Source: Rubritalea marina DSM 17716 (GTDB lineage Bacteria; Verrucomicrobiota; Verrucomicrobiia; Verrucomicrobiales; Akkermansiaceae). From it: 64,000 bases of DNA. The stretch lies in contig NZ_KB899251.1 in the NCBI RefSeq assembly GCF_000378105.1, positions 62,001 through 126,000 of the forward strand, given 5' to 3'. The notes under the pieces are model-generated. The model searched no databases. It saw only the letters and a program-made list of their open reading frames with translations, and had not been told where the DNA came from. The translations under genes and the position numbers were made by a program. Shown here one piece after another: positions 33,294-43,554 of the stretch (position 1 is its first letter; every line of letters begins with the position of its first letter).

Positions 33294-33750
33294 CTAGATC
33301 AGTTAAGTATACCCGCCGAACATTTGTTCGGTCGGAGTGCTACGCAAGGTCTAACAGCGGAGCTGATTTTAACAAGTTCCTTTTGCTTGGGTCAATCCAT
33401 CAAACTAGCAGGTAGAGGAGCCAATTTCGTGGAGCTGACGATAGTCCGTAGCGAGCTGGAAGGGCGGGGGTGTTGATCGCTGGGAGTGAGTCAGGTTTCG
33501 TGTGTCGGAGGGGAATTGGAGAGTCTTGAGAGATGGCTCTTCTCATTATGATTCGGTTCGTTCGCTAGATCCGTTGTTGCCACGATGGTCTTTAGGACTG
33601 GGGTGTTTTTGCTGCTCTGGGATTGATCTTAAGGGGCCTTCAACCGGCCGGGTTGGGTGGCTGTTTTTGACTAGGGTACTGTGTCGACTCTGTCATCCTT
33701 GAGCTCTTGCTGCTTCAGTCTGATTGAGTCACGGTGTCTATTTGTTAGAT
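33294..33750. other. intergenic region without recognised gene
   Basis: This 457-base gap lies between the accessory block and a rightward gene. It contains a 16-base inverted repeat CCGAACA-TT-TGTTCGG at 33316-33331. A 66-codon frame at 33502-33702 has no support from composition or start signals. Nothing else stands out. Confidence 0.5.
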
Positions 33751-35490
33751 ATGTCTAGAAGAACTGAAGCTGGGAACTACGATTGGGTGATAGTGGATGG
33801 GATAGGTGCTTTTTTTGGTGCTTATGCCAAGCGACGTATCAATTGGTCGAAGATTCCCTTGGCTGAATTGCCCGTGGAGGGGGAGGAAGCGGATCGATAC
33901 TGGGAGGGGGTGCGCGAGGATATGACTGAGTTTGTCAAGCGTGTGCGAGCGCATGGCTACAACACGGTGACGCTGGATGATGTGGCTCATTTGACGGCCC
34001 ATCGCTCTTACTCGGCTGAGTTGATGAGGCGTGTGGAGCGTCTCAGTGAGGAGATGCGTAAGGTGATTGCGATTATCAAGGGAGCAGGGCTGAAGGTGCT
34101 GATGACGACTGATGCCGTTCCGACTAGTGGGGATTTGGTGCATGAGCTCGGTGGGAAGCGCGCGCGAATTGCTGAGTATTTCTATGCCTTGATTGATCAG
34201 TTTTTGACGGAGTTTCCAGAGGTGGATGGCGTGGTGCTGCGCTTGGGGGAAGGCGATGGCAAGGATGTGAAGGGGGATCTGCACAATACCTTGTTTGTGG
34301 AGACCGCGCAGCAGGCGAATCAATTGTTGAAGGGGTTACTCCAGGTGATGGAGAGGCATGGCAAGATGTTGCTGTGCCGCACTTGGACCGTGGGAGCCTA
34401 CCAGGTGGGTGATCTCATCTGGCATCGCCGTAGGGTGCGTGGGCTATTGCAAGGGATTGAGAGTCCTAAATTTATTCTGTCTTTGAAGTATGGAGAGAGT
34501 GATTTTTTCCGCTACTTGCCACTGACTCAGGCATTTTTCGAGACTGAGGTTCCGAAGGTGATTGAGTTCCAGGCGCGGCGCGAATACGAGGGGGCTGGGG
34601 AATACCCAAGTTTTATTGGTTGGGATGTGGAAAACTATGCCCATCAGCTGGAGCAGGCGCAGAATTTGGTGGGCTTTAGTGTCTGGGTTCAAACGGGGGG
34701 CTGGCATGCTTTCAAGCGTCGTTCCTACTTGGCTTCTGGCTCGTATTGGGTCGAGCTGAATAGTGCGGTGACGGTGCAGGTGATGCAGTACGGGCTGAGT
34801 GTGGATGCGGCGCTCACGAAGTTTTATGGCTCATTGAAGCTTGAGCAAGTGCGGCGATTTCTGGAGTTAGCCAATGACGCAGTCCTACGTGGATTGTATA
34901 TTGAGGAATTTGCCAAACAAAAATGGTTTTTCCGTCGCGTGCGTATCCCGCCACTCTTGCATGTCTATTGGGATTGTATTTTCTTCCAACACCCGATTAA
35001 AAAGATTTCCAAACACTTCGTCGGCGATTGGGAGAAAGCCATCGCTGATGGCTACGATGTGCTGCAAAACTTCTCCGAGATGGAAAGCCTCGCAAGGACC
35101 CTGGGCTGGGGGGGGGATGACGTGCAATTTATGCACGATACGTTCGAGATGATTGCCCTCTCTCGGGAGTATATGTTTGCTCCATTCACTGAGGAGCTTC
35201 GCGCCAAGGTGATTGAGAAAAAACGTGCCTACAAGGCCAAGTACCCGCGCAGCGAGCGCTCACGCTATCGCATTAAAACTGATTTCACTCGGGTGCCACT
35301 CAGCTCCCAGGACCTGAGCATTCTACAGCGTCTCTTCTTTCGCAAGAAGCGTGGCTACCGCGTGATTGACCACCTCGTGACTCTCCGCCTGCTCGGGCGA
35401 GTCTATCGGATCTTCCACCGGCGTTATGAGCATAAGATCCCGAAGTTTGCTCGGAAGAGTGCGATGGGGATTGAGACGGTTCTGAAGTGA
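33751..35490 (+). CDS. putative GH67-like glycoside hydrolase
   Basis: This 579-residue protein has no signal peptide and reads like a TIM-barrel glycosidase. NTVTLDDVAH and the later block from FILSLKYGESDFF to KVIEFQARREYEGAGEYPSFIGWDVENYAHQ resemble the core of alpha-glucuronidase-type (GH67) enzymes, where the substrate arm is read by a similar EFQ segment. The C-terminal 150 residues are helical and basic. The catalytic acids cannot be fixed by eye. ATG 33751 was chosen over TTG 33724. Its product may act in the cytoplasm on an oligosaccharide; the following TonB operon is probably unrelated. Confidence 0.5.
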   Translation: MSRRTEAGNYDWVIVDGIGAFFGAYAKRRINWSKIPLAELPVEGEEADRYWEGVREDMTEFVKRVRAHGYNTVTLDDVAHLTAHRSYSAELMRRVERLSEEMRKVIAIIKGAGLKVLMTTDAVPTSGDLVHELGGKRARIAEYFYALIDQFLTEFPEVDGVVLRLGEGDGKDVKGDLHNTLFVETAQQANQLLKGLLQVMERHGKMLLCRTWTVGAYQVGDLIWHRRRVRGLLQGIESPKFILSLKYGESDFFRYLPLTQAFFETEVPKVIEFQARREYEGAGEYPSFIGWDVENYAHQLEQAQNLVGFSVWVQTGGWHAFKRRSYLASGSYWVELNSAVTVQVMQYGLSVDAALTKFYGSLKLEQVRRFLELANDAVLRGLYIEEFAKQKWFFRRVRIPPLLHVYWDCIFFQHPIKKISKHFVGDWEKAIADGYDVLQNFSEMESLARTLGWGGDDVQFMHDTFEMIALSREYMFAPFTEELRAKVIEKKRAYKAKYPRSERSRYRIKTDFTRVPLSSQDLSILQRLFFRKKRGYRVIDHLVTLRLLGRVYRIFHRRYEHKIPKFARKSAMGIETVLK

Positions 35491-35564: not shown

Positions 35565-35578
35565 GTAGCTTGTGCTAC
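35565..35578. promoter_or_regulatory. predicted MntR-like operator before the TonB operon
   Basis: The palindrome GTAGC-TTGT-GCTAC lies 78 bases before the first gene of the TonB operon. The same GTAGC-N4-GCTAC geometry occurs three times between the TonB-dependent receptor and the MntR-like regulator. E. coli MntR sites have the closely related ATAGC-N4-GCTAT form. The regulatory role is inferred. Confidence 0.7.
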
Positions 35579-35655
35579 ATGGTGAGTGATCAATTGTGTG
35601 ATTTGCTGATTGCTGCTGTGTGGGATTGGCGTATTGGATTAGGTGAGAGAACGAG

Positions 35656-36432
35656 ATGATGATGGTTCTAAAAGGATTAAGAATAGCGGCGCTAGTGCCG
35701 ATGGTGGCGGTGATGGCGGCCGACGGAGCAGGGTCTGAGGCCTTGGGTGAGACGCTGGAGCAACCGCTGCTGGCTCTGAAGCTGGTAGAGGAACGCGTGG
35801 CCAATGAGCGCCAGTTGTCTGAGGAGATGCTGGAGCTTCAGGCAAGGCGCGTGGAGGAGGAGCGGCTTAAGGCACTTTATCGTGTGGAATTGGATGCGAT
35901 TCGCAAGCAGGTTGAGGCAGCTGGATCGGCACACACGCAGGATATGGAGTCGCTGCGCAGGGATCAAGAGTTTGTGAGGCAGGCAAAGAGCAAGCGCCAG
36001 GACATGCAGGATGCCTTGGTGCAGCAGATCCAGCGGATCGAGGCGATGCAGCCGCTGCTTCCCGAGCTGCTGAAGCAGCAGCTTGAGACTGAGTATGCGC
36101 GCCTTGGTGATGCCGATGCGGCCTTGAAGGATAAGATCGTGGCATGCAGCACGTACTTGCAGAAGCTCGCAAAGTTCGACCAATCAATCAGCTATGCAGA
36201 GGAGTTTCATGAGATCAAGGGCCAGGAGAAGCAACTTGAGATCCTTTATTTGGGCTTCGGGGGTGCGTACTTCGTGAGTGGCGGACTTGCGGGGCGGGGA
36301 ACGGTGAGTGCTGCAGGCTGGCAATGGCAGGTGGATGAGGGACTGGCGTCTGAGGCGAAGCGTGCGATGGCGATCTTTAAGAAGAATGCCCGCCCAGATT
36401 TGGTGAAACTTCCAGTGCAAATCACAAAATGA
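35656..36432 (+). CDS. DUF3450-like periplasmic coiled-coil protein of a TonB system
   Basis: This 258-residue protein has an N-terminal signal sequence (VLKGLRIAALVPMVAVMAADGA), a long coiled coil (about 45-190, rich in Glu, Gln, Arg) and a small C-terminal beta part (ILYLGFGGAYFVSGG, GWQWQVDEG). The layout and position in front of a MotA/TolQ/ExbB-type gene match DUF3450 proteins, which accompany TtpC-type TonB systems in marine proteobacteria. It likely works in the periplasm with the next gene product. Its stop overlaps the next start (ATGA). Confidence 0.78.
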   Translation: MMMVLKGLRIAALVPMVAVMAADGAGSEALGETLEQPLLALKLVEERVANERQLSEEMLELQARRVEEERLKALYRVELDAIRKQVEAAGSAHTQDMESLRRDQEFVRQAKSKRQDMQDALVQQIQRIEAMQPLLPELLKQQLETEYARLGDADAALKDKIVACSTYLQKLAKFDQSISYAEEFHEIKGQEKQLEILYLGFGGAYFVSGGLAGRGTVSAAGWQWQVDEGLASEAKRAMAIFKKNARPDLVKLPVQITK

Positions 36433-37736
36433 TCAGAGGATTGATACGAACCATTGCGGTGGCGAGCACGCTAGGCGTGGCACCCGCGCTCGAGCTCAGC
36501 GACCTACGCGATGACCTGAAGCAATCGCAAGAAAAGCTCGGTGGCTTCCGTGCGGCGGAACGTGAAAAGAACATCGCGCTGGCAGAGGAATTGGCTCAAC
36601 TGGAGGTTGCCTTAGGCGAGGCTCGCGAGGAGCTCAAGTTGATCGAGCTCGGGCGCAAAGGACGCGATGACTTGAAGTTTTCCGTAAAGCGTGAGGCTCA
36701 GGCATTCGAGCGCGATTTTGATTCCATCGAGAGCACGCTGAAAGATTTTTCGGTGCAGTTCTGGCTGCGCTCGCGACAGGAACTTCCAGAGTCTGGAGCG
36801 GACAGTGCCTCGCCATCACAGGTGGCGTTGCTGGGGGCAGCTCTGGACGTGATAGAGTCAAAGGTTGGTGGTGAGCTAAGTGACAGCAAGGTGGTGAATG
36901 GCGAGGGCGATCTGGTGCAGGGTAAGACCTATAGCTTTGGTCCTTTGGCGTGGTTCCAGAGTGCTGACAAGCAAGAGTCTGGGGTGGTTCAGTACCTCAG
37001 TGGTAAGCAATATGGCAACCTGGATACCGCCGTAGATCGTGCTGCGTTAGAGGCGCTCTTTGCTGGTAGGGAAGCTCAGATGATGCTCGACCTCACTGGG
37101 GGAAAGGCGCGCATGATTGCTAAGATCCAGGATGACCCACTCAGGCTCTTTGAGAAGGGCGGGGTGTGGATTTGGCCAATCATCGCTATTGCAGTGATTT
37201 CCTTGATTTGTGGTGTCTTCAAGTTCCTTGAGCTTCGGCGCATGAAAGAACCTGATGCCGCATGGATCGGCTCACTACTGCAGGCGGTGAAGGGCCAAGA
37301 GCTCGAACGCGCTGCTGAGATCTGCGCTGGCACCCAGCACCCGGTGGGTGAGGTGATTGCCAAGTCGCTGAGCTTTGTGGAGCACGGCGCAGAAGTCGTG
37401 GACGAAGTGATTTTTGAGCAAATGATCGGGGTGCAGAATGCGATGCAGCGTTGGCTCCCATTCATTGCTGTGACGGCGGCAGCGGCTCCCTTGCTGGGGC
37501 TGCTCGGTACGGTGTCAGGAATGATTCGCATGTTCAATGTGATCACTGTGACGGGCACGGGTGATGTGAAGCCGATGGCTGGGGGGATCTCTGAGGCGCT
37601 GACGACTACTTTGTTTGGCTTGGTGGTGGCGATCCCAGCACTGGTGTTGCACACGATGCTTTCACGCCGCAGTTCGGGGATTGTTCAGACCTCTGAGCGA
37701 TTGAGTCTCACCTTTACCAATGGACTGAAGAAGTAG
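36429..37736 (+). CDS. TtpC-like long ExbB/TolQ-family protein
   Basis: This 435-residue protein has a signal sequence, a periplasmic coiled-coil region of about 220 residues, a transmembrane helix at about 247-269, and a C-terminal MotA/TolQ/ExbB domain with two more helices (about 344-365 and 391-412; PLLGLLGTVSGM and ISEALTTTLFGLVVAIPAL). This is the TtpC plan: a second, enlarged ExbB that assists the ExbB-ExbD-TonB motor. It overlaps the DUF3450 gene by 4 bases and precedes exbB by 3. Confidence 0.88.
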   Translation: MIRGLIRTIAVASTLGVAPALELSDLRDDLKQSQEKLGGFRAAEREKNIALAEELAQLEVALGEAREELKLIELGRKGRDDLKFSVKREAQAFERDFDSIESTLKDFSVQFWLRSRQELPESGADSASPSQVALLGAALDVIESKVGGELSDSKVVNGEGDLVQGKTYSFGPLAWFQSADKQESGVVQYLSGKQYGNLDTAVDRAALEALFAGREAQMMLDLTGGKARMIAKIQDDPLRLFEKGGVWIWPIIAIAVISLICGVFKFLELRRMKEPDAAWIGSLLQAVKGQELERAAEICAGTQHPVGEVIAKSLSFVEHGAEVVDEVIFEQMIGVQNAMQRWLPFIAVTAAAAPLLGLLGTVSGMIRMFNVITVTGTGDVKPMAGGISEALTTTLFGLVVAIPALVLHTMLSRRSSGIVQTSERLSLTFTNGLKK

Positions 37737-37739
37737 GCA

Positions 37740-38294
37740 ATGAATTGGTTTTTCATCATCTACCGCGAGCTATTGAGCATCCTCCAGCAAGGTGGCATCG
37801 TCTTTGTGGGGATCTTGCTAGTGGGTGCTTGGATGTATCATATTATCCTGTCAACTTGGTTTGCTCTGCGGCCGATCGAGCGGGAGCTCGGTGCCATGGA
37901 TTCGCCGATGGTGGGGCAGCGTGACGAAGAAGATGTGTTCCGCTTTTTTGAAGTGTTTAAGCTGCAGAATCTCGCGTGGTTGGATCGCCGGATGCCGGTG
38001 ATTGGGGTGATGGTGGGGGTCTGTACCTTGGCTGGACTGCTCGGCACAGTTTCTGGGATGTTGGTGACTTTTTCGAGTATGGCGAGTAGCGATGGGGGCA
38101 AGCCGATGGAGAAGATCGCGGCGGGTATCTCTGAGGCGATGATCACCACGCAGGCTGGCCTATTGATTGCGCTGCCAGCAGTCTTTGCCTTTGCGTTGTT
38201 GAAGCTCAGGCTCAAGCGCGTGCATGACATGCTGGAGCAATGCCAGTCGCGCCAGGTGAGATGGATGCAATTGAAGGGAGCACGGCATGCGTAG
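37740..38294 (+). CDS. exbB: ExbB-type proton channel subunit
   Basis: This 184-residue protein is the compact ExbB: helix 1 at about 18-40, then LAGLLGTVSGMLVTFSSMA and ISEAMITTQAGLLIALPAVFAFALL. With ExbD it forms the proton-driven motor of TonB in the inner membrane. It overlaps exbD by 8 bases. Confidence 0.92.
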   Translation: MNWFFIIYRELLSILQQGGIVFVGILLVGAWMYHIILSTWFALRPIERELGAMDSPMVGQRDEEDVFRFFEVFKLQNLAWLDRRMPVIGVMVGVCTLAGLLGTVSGMLVTFSSMASSDGGKPMEKIAAGISEAMITTQAGLLIALPAVFAFALLKLRLKRVHDMLEQCQSRQVRWMQLKGARHA

Positions 38295-38694
38295 ACGATC
38301 CATCAGCTCAGCCGGAGGTGCCCAAGCCAGCGAGATCAACATGTCGCCACTGATCGACATCGTTTTTATCTTACTGATTTTCTTTGTGGTCACTACGGTC
38401 TTTGTGGAGGACCCCGGGGTGGAGATTCAGAAACCACAAGCGAGCACCGCGCAGAAGGTGGATCAAGAGGTGGTGATCCTGGGGATCACGGCGGAGAGCG
38501 AGGTGTTTTATGCGGGCAAGAATATTGGAGTCGATGGCGTGCAGTCGGTGGTTTCTTTCATGTTGGCAGACAACCCGGAGATGCCAGTGGTGATTCAGGG
38601 GGATCGTCATGCCAAGCATGGGGTGATCATGAAGGTCACCGATGCGGCGAAGCTTGCCGGTGCCAAGCAAGTATTTTCAGCCGTCGCCAAGTGA
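38287..38694 (+). CDS. exbD: ExbD-type motor subunit
   Basis: This 135-residue protein has one N-terminal helix, MSPLIDIVFILLIFFVVTTVFV, with the proton-carrying Asp24, and a periplasmic domain ending in VVIQGDRHAKHGVIMKVTDAAKLAGAKQVFSAV. The conserved Asp and family length are intact. It works with ExbB and TonB to couple proton flow to outer-membrane transport. Confidence 0.93.
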   Translation: MRRRSISSAGGAQASEINMSPLIDIVFILLIFFVVTTVFVEDPGVEIQKPQASTAQKVDQEVVILGITAESEVFYAGKNIGVDGVQSVVSFMLADNPEMPVVIQGDRHAKHGVIMKVTDAAKLAGAKQVFSAVAK

Positions 38695-38704
38695 ATCGAG
38701 TCCT

Positions 38705-39397
38705 ATGAATTGGAAGGCCCTCATCATCAGCAACCTGTTCGTGATCGTATTGGTCATCGGTCTCGCCGTGACCCGAGTGATTCGCTACATGCCGGATGAA
38801 GATCTCGCTGAAATCCAAGAAATCGAGCTCGCCATCTACGAGCCACCAGCTGAGAAGGAGATCGAGGAGCTCCATGAACCAGAGCCGCTGGAGGATGTGC
38901 CGCCGCCACCGCCACCGAGCTTTGACGAGCTTGTGCCATCAGCAGACCCCACGGCAGTCAGCCTGCCTACTGTGGAGGTGCAGATTACGATTGATGCCCA
39001 GACCGACCTCTTTTCGACTGAGCGTGCGCCAGCTCCGTTGATTGTTGAAAAGCGTGCCACCCCCGAGCCTAAACCAACGAAGCCGAAGCTGAAGATCGGC
39101 AAGGTCAAGCGCGATGTGGGGCTGGGCGACTTGGATGCGAAACCCCGCGTTCTGCGCAAGGGTATCCTACGCTGGCCTCGCGGCGTGCGCAGTGGCAGTG
39201 TGAATGCGGTGCTGCGCATCGAGCTCAACCAAAGCGGGCGCGCGACATTGCTCAAGGTTGTGTCGCTGGATGATGAACGGTTTCGTTCGATGCTCTCAGA
39301 CTACGTCAAAACCACACGATTCACCGTACCGAAAAAAGATGGCAAGCCCGTAGGCAAGGTCGTCTTTCATTGGCCCAACAGCTTTCAGAAGAGATGA
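38705..39397 (+). CDS. tonB: TonB energy transducer
   Basis: This 230-residue protein has an N-terminal membrane anchor (LIISNLFVIVLVIGLAV), a proline/acid-rich linker (EPPAEKEIEELHEPEPLEDVPPPPPP, then PEPKPTKPK), and a C-terminal domain from about residue 150 with SGSVNAVLRIELNQSGRA and VPKKDGKPVGKVVFHWP, which fits TonB. ATG 38705 follows the exbD stop by 10 bases; longer readings overlap exbD. The periplasmic domain should contact the receptor encoded convergently downstream. Confidence 0.9.
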   Translation: MNWKALIISNLFVIVLVIGLAVTRVIRYMPDEDLAEIQEIELAIYEPPAEKEIEELHEPEPLEDVPPPPPPSFDELVPSADPTAVSLPTVEVQITIDAQTDLFSTERAPAPLIVEKRATPEPKPTKPKLKIGKVKRDVGLGDLDAKPRVLRKGILRWPRGVRSGSVNAVLRIELNQSGRATLLKVVSLDDERFRSMLSDYVKTTRFTVPKKDGKPVGKVVFHWPNSFQKR

Positions 39398-40773
39398 AAC
39401 AGCATATTTTATTCACCAGCCTCCTCACAGCAATCCCGCTCGGTCTCATGGCGCAGCCCGAAGCCATGCCATTGTCTCAGTCGTACTGGAAGTCCGCGGA
39501 GTTTGTGAAGGCATTCAATGGGTCCTACCGCACCAACGCTCGGATTGAACCGTACATCACGAGCGAGGAAAAGGTGGTGCTGCAGCAGGTGCAGAGCCAG
39601 ATGGCCAAGGGCGCTCGGACTGCCGCGATTCAGACGATTCAGGCCAGCCCATTGAGCAATGGGTCGGCTGCGTTGCAATTCAATCTCGCGAGCCTATACT
39701 TTGAAGAAGGTGACTTTGAGCAGGCGCGCGCCGCCTATCAACATGCCTTAAAACGCTACCCATCCTTTCGCCGTGCCCACAAGAACCTCGGCTTGACCTT
39801 GATGCGGCTCGATCAGCAAGCACTGGCGATGCAGAGCCTGCTCAAGGCGGTGGAGCTGGGGGACATGAGCGCGAGCACACTCGGGGTGTTGGGCTATTGT
39901 CATCTCGAGGCAGAGAACTACGGCTCCGCATTCCAAGCGTATCAATTGGCCCAACTGACTGAGCCCAACAACATCTCTTGGAAGGCAGGAGTGGCGCAGT
40001 GCCTGATGGCGATGGACAAGCTCTCCGAAGGCTTGGCAATGATCGAGGAGGTGTACAAGGAGGCCCCACAGGAGCTCGGCTATGCTCAGCTGTATGTGCA
40101 TGCCTTACTGGAAGACGAGCAACACGCGAAAGCGATTGCGATGCTGGAGCTCCTGCTACGCCAAGAGCGACTCAGCCTCGCGGATCGTAGCCTCTTGGCC
40201 CAACTCTATGCGGGTGAGGGTGACTTTAGGATGGCAAAGCCTCACATCGCTGCAGTGTTGGAAAATTTTCAGTCAAGCGAAGCAAAGACCCAGGCTGCCG
40301 ACGCCCATGCGCTGCTTCAGGTCATTGGGGCCGTGGTGGTGCTCGGTGAGTGGCAGTATGCGCTCGATGCGCTGGATCACGTGGCTGGGCGCTTCGATGC
40401 CCTAGCTGAGAGCCAAGGTCAGCAGATGACTCGCTATCGCGCGTTTTGCATGGCGCAGCTTGGCATGCCAGAGGCGCTGCCCTTACTGGATGGTTTATTG
40501 AAAAGCAAGCCGCTCGATGGCGAGCTGATATTACTGACTGCGAAGCTCCAAGTGTCACTGGGGCATGCTGCTGCGGCAGAGGTGCTCTATGAGCGTGCGG
40601 AGCAGCTGGAGTCATCGCGCTACCACGCCTTACTTTCTCATGGAGGCCTGTTGGTGCAGCAAAAGCGCTACAAGCGTGCGCTCGGAAAGTACGAAGCTGC
40701 CCAAGCGATGAAAGCGACTGAGGAGCAGGCGAAGTATATTGACGAGCTGCGCCGGGTCGTGGGGCTGCAATAG
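39394..40773 (+). CDS. TPR protein of the TonB operon
   Basis: This 459-residue exported protein (signal MKQHILFTSLLTAIPLGLMA) contains many tetratricopeptide-like helix pairs, for example ALQFNLASLYFEEGDFEQARAAYQHALKRYP and AHKNLGLTLMRLDQQALAMQSLLKAVELG. TPR proteins at the end of TtpC-type operons are known, e.g. the TonB2 complex TPR protein of Vibrio. It overlaps tonB by the ATGA pattern. It may organise the complex in the periplasm. Confidence 0.85.
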   Translation: MKQHILFTSLLTAIPLGLMAQPEAMPLSQSYWKSAEFVKAFNGSYRTNARIEPYITSEEKVVLQQVQSQMAKGARTAAIQTIQASPLSNGSAALQFNLASLYFEEGDFEQARAAYQHALKRYPSFRRAHKNLGLTLMRLDQQALAMQSLLKAVELGDMSASTLGVLGYCHLEAENYGSAFQAYQLAQLTEPNNISWKAGVAQCLMAMDKLSEGLAMIEEVYKEAPQELGYAQLYVHALLEDEQHAKAIAMLELLLRQERLSLADRSLLAQLYAGEGDFRMAKPHIAAVLENFQSSEAKTQAADAHALLQVIGAVVVLGEWQYALDALDHVAGRFDALAESQGQQMTRYRAFCMAQLGMPEALPLLDGLLKSKPLDGELILLTAKLQVSLGHAAAAEVLYERAEQLESSRYHALLSHGGLLVQQKRYKRALGKYEAAQAMKATEEQAKYIDELRRVVGLQ

Positions 40774-40807
40774 TCTAGCCTGCCAGGCCAAACTCACCCA
40801 AATGTGC

Positions 40808-40838
40808 AAAAAAATACCGCAGCATAAGATGCGGTATT
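40808..40838. terminator. shared terminator of the TonB operon and receptor gene
   Basis: A 9-bp stem AATACCGCA/TGCGGTATT (40813-40821 with 40830-40838) is flanked by an A-run at left and a short T-run at right. It lies between the convergent tonB operon and receptor gene and has a U-run best placed for the minus strand. Confidence 0.75.
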
Positions 40839-40879
40839 TGCGAGGCTTTGAGTTTATTGAGTCTAGGGCAGAGGCGCGC

Positions 40880-43012
40880 TTAGAAGCTGTAGTTGAGGCT
40901 GCCAAAGAAGGTGCGTGGGAATGCCGGCCCATAGATGTAGCTGGCATCCCTGAAGGCCCCACTCTCGAGGTCGCTCTGGTAGTCGTCGAAGAGGTTTTTG
41001 ATGCCGAGTGTCGTAGTCAATTCACCATCGCCTACGAGGAAATCTCGCGACACGCCGATATCGACATTGAAGAACCAAGGGCTGCGCTCTAGGCGGTTCC
41101 CTTCGAGGTCGCCAGTGCCGGGGTTGGAGACGACGCGTGGGATGTCCATCGGGCCGGTGAGCTTGCCAGTGATGAAGGAATCGACCCACTTGCCATCGTG
41201 GTTGAAGCGCAGGAGACCCAGCGACTCAGGCGTGCGTACGTAGGTGTTGGAGAAAATGGCATTGTCGATGGTGTCGTCAGGATCGCCGAGCACCAGCTGT
41301 GGGCTGTCGTACTCTAGGCGTTGCTGCACCCACGAGAGCTCCAGGCTCCAGAAGTCGGTGAAGTAGCCTAGGTTGAACTCCGCCCCGTAGACTTTGGAGC
41401 CCTCACCATTGGTGCGGATTTCCTCGATCACGCCCGGGGTGCTGGGGTCGTCATTGGGCTGCACCACAAAGGTGTCGTCGAGCCAGGTGTGGAAGGCATT
41501 CATTTCGAGGCGCAAGTGTTCGTTGACCTGCCACTCGGGCGATAGGGAGATAGTGACCGAGCTTTCTTCTTTGAGATTGGGGTCGTTGAAGGTGGTGCGG
41601 AGATCGCCACCGACACTCTCGATGTGGAGGTCTTCGTCGAACACTTCAGGGGCTCGGAACCCGGTGGAGACTGCGCCACGGATGCGCAAGTCGTCTTCTG
41701 GCGACCATAGGATGGCGGCGCGCGGGGAGAAGATGGGGTCGTTGATCTCGGAGTTGAAGTCGCCGCGGAGTCCGTATTCAAGCGTCCAGAGCTCTTGAGG
41801 TTTCCAGCGGTGCTGAGCGTAGATGCCTAGGTTTTCAAATGTTTGGTCAAGGTTGCGGTTTACGGAGCCTTGGTTGTCTACGATATTCTCAGACTTGAAG
41901 TTCGACCCAAAGGTGAAACGATGTTGGTCGCTTAGCTGGTAGCTAGCGAGTGCATCCAGGAAGTGGAGGTCATCCTTGGTGTTGCCGAAGCCTAGCGCTG
42001 AGTCCGTACCCAGAGCCACCGTGCCACCGTAATAGGAATCGCGCTTGGTGTGCGAGTACGCATAGGCGAAGCGCGTGCTCCATTGCGCATTCCAATCGGC
42101 CTGCCATTTGATTGTGTTGGTCAGGCGCTGCGACATGATCTCCTCTGCGATTTGTGACTCATTAGGTGCGCGCTCGAAGGCGTCGCCGGTATCGCCACCG
42201 CGGCGCTCTTCATCAGAGTAGGAAAAGTCGATGCTAAGGGTGTGATCTTCGGCCGGACGCCAGAGGGTGCGGAAGCCGGCCGTCGCAAGGTTACGCATGG
42301 ACACATCGGTGAACCCGTCGCCATTCAAGTCGAGCGGTTGGACACGGTCAAATCCGCCATAGAATGTCGCCTTCACTTTCTCGTCATCACTCACATAATC
42401 GTACAGGCCAAAAAGGTTCCCGCCAGGTGCTTGGCCAAAGCTATCACCCTGGCTGCCCTGCAGGCGTGCCTCGATGCGGCCACCGGATTCCTCAGGCTCA
42501 CGTGGCACGAGATTGATGACGCCAGCGACAGCTCCTGGCCCATAGAGTACCGAGCCGCCTCCCTTGACGATCTCGATCTGCCCGATTGTGCCAGCTGGGA
42601 TCTGTTCGATGCCGTAGACGCCGGCAAGCGTGGAAAAACTAGGCATGCCATCAAAGAGCAAGCCGATGTATTGTTGTGGCAATCCCAGCATTTGGATCGA
42701 CTGTTGGTTGCAGTTCGAGCAGGCGGTGTCGATGCGCACCCCGGGTGAGAACTCCACGGCCTCTGCCAGCGTGCGTGTGCCTGTCTGTTGGAGCAATGCT
42801 GCGTCGATGACTTCGGTGCGTACCGGGGTGTCGCGCAGCGGCTCGGCTACCTGAGAGCCAGTCACTACCGTGGTCTCTAAGGTGTCAAACGGACTGCCTG
42901 TGTCCTGAGCCCAGAGTGATGCGCTGGTACACATTCCTAGTGCTGTTGCCCAAAGTGCCACGCTGTGGGGGAGGCCCGCTCGTTGCGGCGCGCCTATGCT
43001 TGGTTGATTCAT
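40880..43012 (-). CDS. TonB-dependent outer-membrane receptor
   Basis: This 710-residue receptor has a long N-terminal signal region, a TonB-box-like FDTLETTVVTG (about 42-52), a plug domain (about 55-190) with VEIVKGGGSVLYGPGAVAGVINLVPRE-type signature, and a 22-stranded barrel ending in FGSLNYSF. The plug contains CSNCN (Cys98, Cys101). It is convergent with the tonB operon and divergent from the MntR-like regulator. Shared operators point to a metal or a metal-carrying compound as substrate; the exact ligand is unknown. Confidence 0.93.
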   Translation of the reverse strand: MNQPSIGAPQRAGLPHSVALWATALGMCTSASLWAQDTGSPFDTLETTVVTGSQVAEPLRDTPVRTEVIDAALLQQTGTRTLAEAVEFSPGVRIDTACSNCNQQSIQMLGLPQQYIGLLFDGMPSFSTLAGVYGIEQIPAGTIGQIEIVKGGGSVLYGPGAVAGVINLVPREPEESGGRIEARLQGSQGDSFGQAPGGNLFGLYDYVSDDEKVKATFYGGFDRVQPLDLNGDGFTDVSMRNLATAGFRTLWRPAEDHTLSIDFSYSDEERRGGDTGDAFERAPNESQIAEEIMSQRLTNTIKWQADWNAQWSTRFAYAYSHTKRDSYYGGTVALGTDSALGFGNTKDDLHFLDALASYQLSDQHRFTFGSNFKSENIVDNQGSVNRNLDQTFENLGIYAQHRWKPQELWTLEYGLRGDFNSEINDPIFSPRAAILWSPEDDLRIRGAVSTGFRAPEVFDEDLHIESVGGDLRTTFNDPNLKEESSVTISLSPEWQVNEHLRLEMNAFHTWLDDTFVVQPNDDPSTPGVIEEIRTNGEGSKVYGAEFNLGYFTDFWSLELSWVQQRLEYDSPQLVLGDPDDTIDNAIFSNTYVRTPESLGLLRFNHDGKWVDSFITGKLTGPMDIPRVVSNPGTGDLEGNRLERSPWFFNVDIGVSRDFLVGDGELTTTLGIKNLFDDYQSDLESGAFRDASYIYGPAFPRTFFGSLNYSF

Positions 43013-43038
43013 GCCTTGTTGGTAATCGGTTGGTTTAT

Positions 43039-43090
43039 GTAGCTTGAGCTACTGTAGCACGAGCTACATTGTTTGTGTAGCATGGGCTAC
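43039..43090. promoter_or_regulatory. three MntR-like operators between receptor and regulator
   Basis: Three palindromes GTAGC-N4-GCTAC lie at 43039-43052 (TTGA), 43054-43067 (ACGA) and 43077-43090 (ATGG), spaced 15 and 23 bases start to start. They fill the centre of the 113-base divergent gap, so a repressor bound here could control both genes. The same motif stands before the TonB operon at 35565. Confidence 0.8.
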
Positions 43091-43125
43091 GTTTTAACCT
43101 TGTCAAGCATGGAGTAACAGGGAAG

Positions 43126-43554
43126 ATGCTTGGGATGAGTGATGAGTCCAAGCACCGAGCAGCGATCCATGAACGAGTGCGCCAGCAGCATTCTTCAGAA
43201 CTTGCGCAGGACTATGTGGAGGCGATCCATGAGATTTTGGAGGGTGGCAGTGCGGTGACGATTAGTGCCTTACAAAAGGTGTTTGGAGTGTCGCACGTGA
43301 CGGTGATTCGGACCCTGCAGCGGCTGCAGGAGCAGGGATTGATTTCGGGTACCAAGTCGAAGGAGATCAGTCTGACCAATGAAGGTAGGCAGGTGGCTGA
43401 GCGGGCGATCGAAAAGCACGCCTTACTCAAGCGCTTTTTTGAGGCCCTGGGTGTGAGCGACACACAAGCTGACGCAGATGCCGAGGGTGCTGAGCACCAT
43501 TTGAGTGAGGAAACCTTGGAGGCGATCCGGCGTTTTCTCGAGCAACAGGGCTAA
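43126..43554 (+). CDS. mntR: MntR/DtxR-family metal-responsive regulator
   Basis: This 142-residue protein has the MntR architecture: SSELAQDYVEAIHEIL, winged-helix DNA-binding part with VSHVTVIRTLQRLQEQGLI, and a dimerisation/metal part with HALLKRFFEALGV, DADAEGAEHHLSEETLEAIRRFL. The Glu/His pattern EGAEHH fits the metal site. No C-terminal SH3/FeoA domain is present, as in MntR. It should repress transport genes when the metal is abundant. Whether it senses Mn(II) or Fe(II) cannot be told from sequence alone. Confidence 0.88.
   Translation: MLGMSDESKHRAAIHERVRQQHSSELAQDYVEAIHEILEGGSAVTISALQKVFGVSHVTVIRTLQRLQEQGLISGTKSKEISLTNEGRQVAERAIEKHALLKRFFEALGVSDTQADADAEGAEHHLSEETLEAIRRFLEQQG

Follow-up and report, generated by a model that had tools for sequence, protein, structure and literature searches.

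The window, a 64,000-nucleotide stretch of the genome of Rubritalea marina DSM 17716, a member of the Verrucomicrobiota, contains a TonB-type operon, a TonB-dependent receptor and an MntR-type regulator, together with four palindromic operators of one geometry (Table 1).

Table 1. Genes and operator boxes of the locus, with positions in the window.
Feature	Position	Strand	Basis or remark
MntR-type operator GTAGCTTGTGCTAC, within TGTAGC-N4-GCTACA	35565-35578		precedes TonB operon
DUF3450 protein, opens TonB/ExbB/ExbD operon	35656-36432	+	PF11932; sole genome copy
ExbB-like proton channel, long N-terminal part	36429-37736	+	PF01618
Second ExbB/TolQ-like proton channel	37740-38294	+	PF01618
ExbD	38287-38694	+	PF02472
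Putative TonB-like protein: N-terminal hydrophobic helix, Pro/Glu-rich spacer	38705-39397	+	position and architecture
TPR-repeat protein, closes TonB operon	39394-40773	+	domain scan
TonB-dependent receptor, C98-S-N-C101 in plug (CxNC type)	40880-43012	-	PF07715 + PF00593
MntR-type operator GTAGCTTGAGCTAC, box 1 of divergent promoter region	43039-43052		exact match
MntR-type operator GTAGCACGAGCTAC, box 2 of divergent promoter region	43054-43067		exact match
MntR-type operator GTAGCATGGGCTAC, box 3 of divergent promoter region	43077-43090		exact match
MntR-type DtxR-family regulator, 142 aa	43126-43554	+	PF01325 + PF02742; PRK11050; PDB 2h09; six metal ligands

Operator boxes and the TonB operon

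The four palindromes described in the first-pass annotation were recovered as exact copies of GTAGC-N4-GCTAC, with one before the TonB operon and three between the receptor and the regulator, as it had claimed. This sequence is expected 0.02 times per 64-kb window, and at least four copies were obtained in 0 of 100 dinucleotide-preserving shuffles. The genome scan for further sites that the annotation had proposed found seven exact copies in 3.01 Mb. The three outside the locus (C3:54182, C8:73334 and C9:104955; G, C and L denote genomes, contigs and loci of this study) lie within long ORFs and were discarded as regulon members, and all the intergenic copies (4/7) are thus found at the window locus.

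The clustered boxes occupy the 113-bp divergent region between the receptor and the regulator and, lying in a promoter region common to both genes, can control both. On the receptor strand, a weak -10-like hexamer (9/12 with the TTGACA at 43106-43101) coincides in part with box 3. No clear sigma-70 promoter was detected by the consensus scan, the best matches reaching 9/12, and the search for riboswitches within the window returned a tRNA alone. One box was flagged as terminator-like, solely as a palindrome with TTGTTTGT after it, and a role of the boxes as intrinsic terminators was set aside.

TonB2-like systems are encoded by DUF3450-ExbB-ExbB-ExbD-TonB-TPR operons, and the window operon has the same genes in the same order, differing by its manganese-type operator. 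Its TonB-like protein matched no TonB model in Pfam or NCBIfam. Immediately upstream of the operon is a 588-aa ORF (33724-35490, plus strand) with no Pfam match.

The box at 35565 is located 77 bp upstream of the first gene of this operon, and the link that it would make to the regulator, through one box in one genome, is plausible. We judge it improbable that mntR and the receptor alone are regulated, with the 35565 box a product of chance and the operon a general energiser. A box before a DUF3450 operon was seen in the window genome and in no second genome, and four plug-domain receptors are encoded with a single DUF3450 gene, as might be expected of a general energiser. However, this box is a full TGTAGC-N4-GCTACA in an intergenic position, and the probability of a chance occurrence in this 165-bp gap is ~2e-4, given that 3.0 Mb contain four boxes beyond those of the cluster. 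The genome, with four plug-domain receptors and seven ExbD genes, may plausibly contain a dedicated motor, and the number of ExbD genes means that a different energiser could serve the window receptor.

The regulator and its operator in related genomes

The regulator contains both the helix-turn-helix domain PF01325 and the metal-binding and dimerisation domain PF02742, each above the gathering score. Its top NCBIfam match is PRK11050, the E. coli-type MntR, at 127 bits; the cut-off of this equivalog (proteobacterial MntR) is 153 bits, and the protein is therefore named MntR-type here and not a PRK11050 equivalog. The closest solved relative is E. coli MntR (E 2.9e-22). The equivalents of Asp8, Glu11, His77, Glu99, Glu102 and His103 (B. 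subtilis MntR numbering) are kept in 22/22 orthologues, namely the window protein and 21 others. The E. coli and B. subtilis MntR rows of this ligand alignment are consistent with the PDB alignments. Ligand 8 is Asp, whereas DtxR has Met. Predicted palindromic operators are present at the regulator's own promoter and at transporter promoters. Two more DtxR-type proteins are encoded in the genome: C1 carries a 143-aa paralogue, and on C6 an ABC permease is fused to a PF02742 domain. This ABC-3 permease fusion (L043:7390-8688) is repeated at L129:2008-3474.

The E. coli MntR regulon comprises mntH, mntS and mntP, and its palindrome is ATAGC-N4-GCTAT. The family of the regulator and the geometry of the palindrome are the same in the window, whereas the window boxes have G/C and not A/T at the outer core position and their predicted targets are an outer-membrane receptor and a TonB motor.

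When up to 320 bp of upstream sequence were searched, an exact box was found for 16 of the 22 orthologues (the window, three others and 18 loci across the phylum) and for none of 24 DtxR paralogue genes (Fisher p=7.5e-8, a value that overstates independence because the orthologues have common ancestry). Together with the shuffles and the genome count, this led us to discard chance as the origin of the window boxes. Versions with one or two mismatches occur at L039, L070 and other loci. The box was not found at mntR in G183, G277 and G186; in G277, two boxes are present on another contig, where an OprB porin and a TroA-like ABC gene follow them. A further set of 80 loci came from Verrucomicrobiota, Planctomycetota and a small number of other groups; xTAGC-N4-GCTAx occurs near mntR in 37 of them, with G...C outermost in 41 of the 58 such sites. 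The flanks of the box, which were left out of the search pattern, converge on AAATGTAGC-N4-GCTACATTT. In B. subtilis, MntR sites of 18 bp, made of paired 9-bp inverted repeats, can be bound in arrays (PMC11275975), and the tandem boxes of the window fit this arrangement. Additional exact boxes in G171, G258, G016, G037 and G378 (C8) were set aside as background, being within ORFs or beside unrelated genes. Another exact box separates pstB-like and phoU-like genes at L134 (G378 C1:312622); it may be a chance copy or may connect manganese with phosphate.

Comparative genomics across the phylum thus backs the MntR regulon of TonB system, receptor and regulator predicted by the first reading, and this regulatory claim is a strong one. 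The neighbours of the orthologues include TroA/MntA-like ABC importers, Nramp/MntH with a universal stress protein (USP), FeoB-like proteins and PF13557 or OprB outer-membrane proteins; the MntH, FeoB and USP neighbours were named from sequence, without a domain scan. The ABC binding proteins that accompany the regulator match the structures of TroA and MntA far better than that of ZnuA. These neighbours are the usual manganese-import set, and manganese is therefore preferred to iron. At L038:8202-9059, L039, L040, L136:4191-5507 and L159, genes for PF13557 and OprB proteins with a box are divergent from mntR or lie upstream of TroA-like ABC genes; these proteins are candidate manganese porins.

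CxNC receptors and possible partners in import

Both the plug and the beta-barrel of a TonB-dependent receptor were found in the receptor protein. Its structure model (pLDDT 79) resembles TonB-dependent receptor structures, and among solved folds it comes closest to receptors for siderophores, haem and B12, at ~16 % identity, a likeness at the fold level only. A regulon responsive to iron, or to manganese and iron together, with a receptor that imports an iron chelate, would agree with these folds, as it would with the iron-repressor name of PF02742 and with the FeoB that adjoins mntR in several relatives. We nevertheless consider it unlikely: the regulator has Asp for the DtxR Met at ligand 8 within a complete MntR ligand set, TroA/MntA-type importers and MntH recur as partners, and the likeness to iron receptors does not extend beyond the fold. 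Where the first-pass annotation had named manganese, iron or a chelate as the possible cargo, manganese is favoured over iron by the regulator ligands and the neighbours in relatives, from which we infer the identity of the metal.

C98, N100 and C101 are invariant in 13 receptor homologues. The CSNC of the window aligns with the CQNC of relatives; the exact letters CQNC are absent, with Ser for Gln. CxNC receptors recur with the box. They are divergent from mntR with an exact box between the two genes in G457, G636 and G258, with TTAGC-N4-GCTAA between them in G664, and with a two-mismatch box in G171; in Ereboglobus (L201), the box of the same arrangement is GTAGCCAATGATAC, with 1-2 mismatches. 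In G407, which has three boxes in all, one adjoins mntR and feoB, and the remaining two, on a contig distinct from that of mntR, precede a CQNC receptor by 52 and 27 bp. The G539 receptor has a box, with mntR absent from the stretch read, and that of G022, a genome from the window's own family, has the box TTAGCTTAGGCTAA, of the TTAGC-N4-GCTAA form, without mntR. At the loci read in G024, G021, G404, G229 and G079, neither box nor mntR was found with the CxNC receptor. In G229 and G079, as in G095, the receptor adjoins a DUF3450-ExbB operon.

The cysteine pair raises the question of cargo. Cysteine is an uncommon ligand for Mn(II), and by general chemistry thiolates fit Zn or Cu better. A true MntR might therefore control a receptor for Zn, Cu or a metallophore, in which the CxNC pair is a ligand or a redox switch. 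The invariance of C98 and C101 would suit such a receptor, as would the thioredoxin-fold proteins that accompany CxNC receptors in G332, G353 and G381, and in G636 beside mntR; in G353 and G381, receptor and thioredoxin-fold protein share an operon with TroA-like ABC genes. We find this reading rather doubtful, as ~9 genomes have a CxNC receptor beside mntR or behind an MntR box, and the ABC binding proteins associated with the regulator are far closer to TroA and MntA than to ZnuA. No thioredoxin-fold gene is found next to the receptor at the window locus.

A second palindrome, ATTTTGA-N2 to N4-TCAAAAT, was observed at the starts of CQNC receptor genes in L126, L129 and L130, and also in L125 and L131. 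In L129 and L130, it heads operons of receptor, thioredoxin-fold and TroA-like ABC genes. This palindrome is probably the site of a second regulator of the CxNC/CQNC receptor family.

For the inner membrane, contig C6 of the window genome carries a TroA/MntA-like ABC operon in which TTAGCCTAGGCTAA lies 46 bp upstream of the gene for the binding protein. This box is of the TTAGC-N4-GCTAA form and nearly identical to the G022 receptor box; the shorter core TAGC-N4-GCTA has 52 copies in the genome. The C6 box may be read by the window MntR or by the fused DtxR domain. A weak Nramp-family match was also found on C10.

Predicted regulation and known manganese systems

We propose, with manganese as the preferred metal, that under Mn(II) sufficiency the GTAGC-N4-GCTAC boxes are occupied by MntR dimers, which would then repress the CxNC receptor together with the DUF3450-ExbB-ExbB-ExbD-TonB-TPR operon and, probably, their own gene, mntR. 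On Mn(II) shortage the repressor would depart, and receptor and energiser would be produced together. Drawing on the proton gradient, the receptor would bring free or chelated manganese into the periplasm, and the C6 TroA/MntA-type ABC importer would most likely carry out the inner-membrane step. As judged from sequence, the MntR-type repressor very probably turns on the receptor and the TonB motor at metal scarcity. The direction, repression, is suggested by MntR biology and by an mntR deletion in Stenotrophomonas maltophilia. The reading that we hold to be likely is a regulon under MntR, made up of receptor, TonB operon and importer, that serves high-affinity import of metal. The wider proposal is about evenly balanced: that MntR controls the receptor with a manganese-dedicated TonB-ExbB-ExbD motor, and that across the phylum the partners swap under one MntR and box, between TonB receptor, OprB/PF13557 porins and ABC, Nramp or FeoB importers.

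The first-pass annotation was right that MntR-type control of TonB-driven uptake is rarely described, but a precedent now exists. In S. maltophilia Sm18 (2026), an MntR-regulated TonB-dependent receptor with CQNC in the plug is encoded beside mntR and mntH and paired with a thioredoxin-fold protein, as the TBDR-pTFP module; deletion of mntR led to higher expression of this receptor locus, and homologues of CQNC receptor loci are found in Opitutales too (PMC13217887). By description, the window locus resembles this module in the Cys-x-Asn-Cys of the plug, the adjacent mntR and the upstream MntR box (PMC13217887). It differs in having CSNC and not CQNC, in the absence of an adjacent thioredoxin-fold gene or mntH, in the box of its own before the TonB/ExbB/ExbD operon, and in a GTAGC-N4-GCTAC operator present in three tandem copies. 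As it has no thioredoxin-fold neighbour, we class the locus as a variant and not as a TBDR-pTFP module. According to the accounts of Si et al. 2017 given in PMC13217887 and PMC9315381, MnoT of Burkholderia thailandensis is a TonB-dependent outer-membrane manganese importer induced at low manganese. By that description, the likeness to the system proposed here lies in TonB-dependent import across the outer membrane and in its induction, and the difference in the T6SS-secreted manganese carrier TseM with which MnoT partners.

MntR control of a CxNC receptor (2026) and, earlier, TonB-dependent manganese uptake (MnoT) were thus already known. What is new here is the operator before a TonB motor, the phylum-wide occurrence of the operator, and the exchange of outer-membrane partners under one regulator. 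The passage of manganese across the Gram-negative outer membrane is poorly known and mostly ascribed to general porins. The conserved operator marks outer-membrane proteins predicted to be under manganese control, and so points to candidate manganese receptors and porins in Verrucomicrobiota and Planctomycetota; it also gives a direct route to testing the use of TonB energy for manganese.
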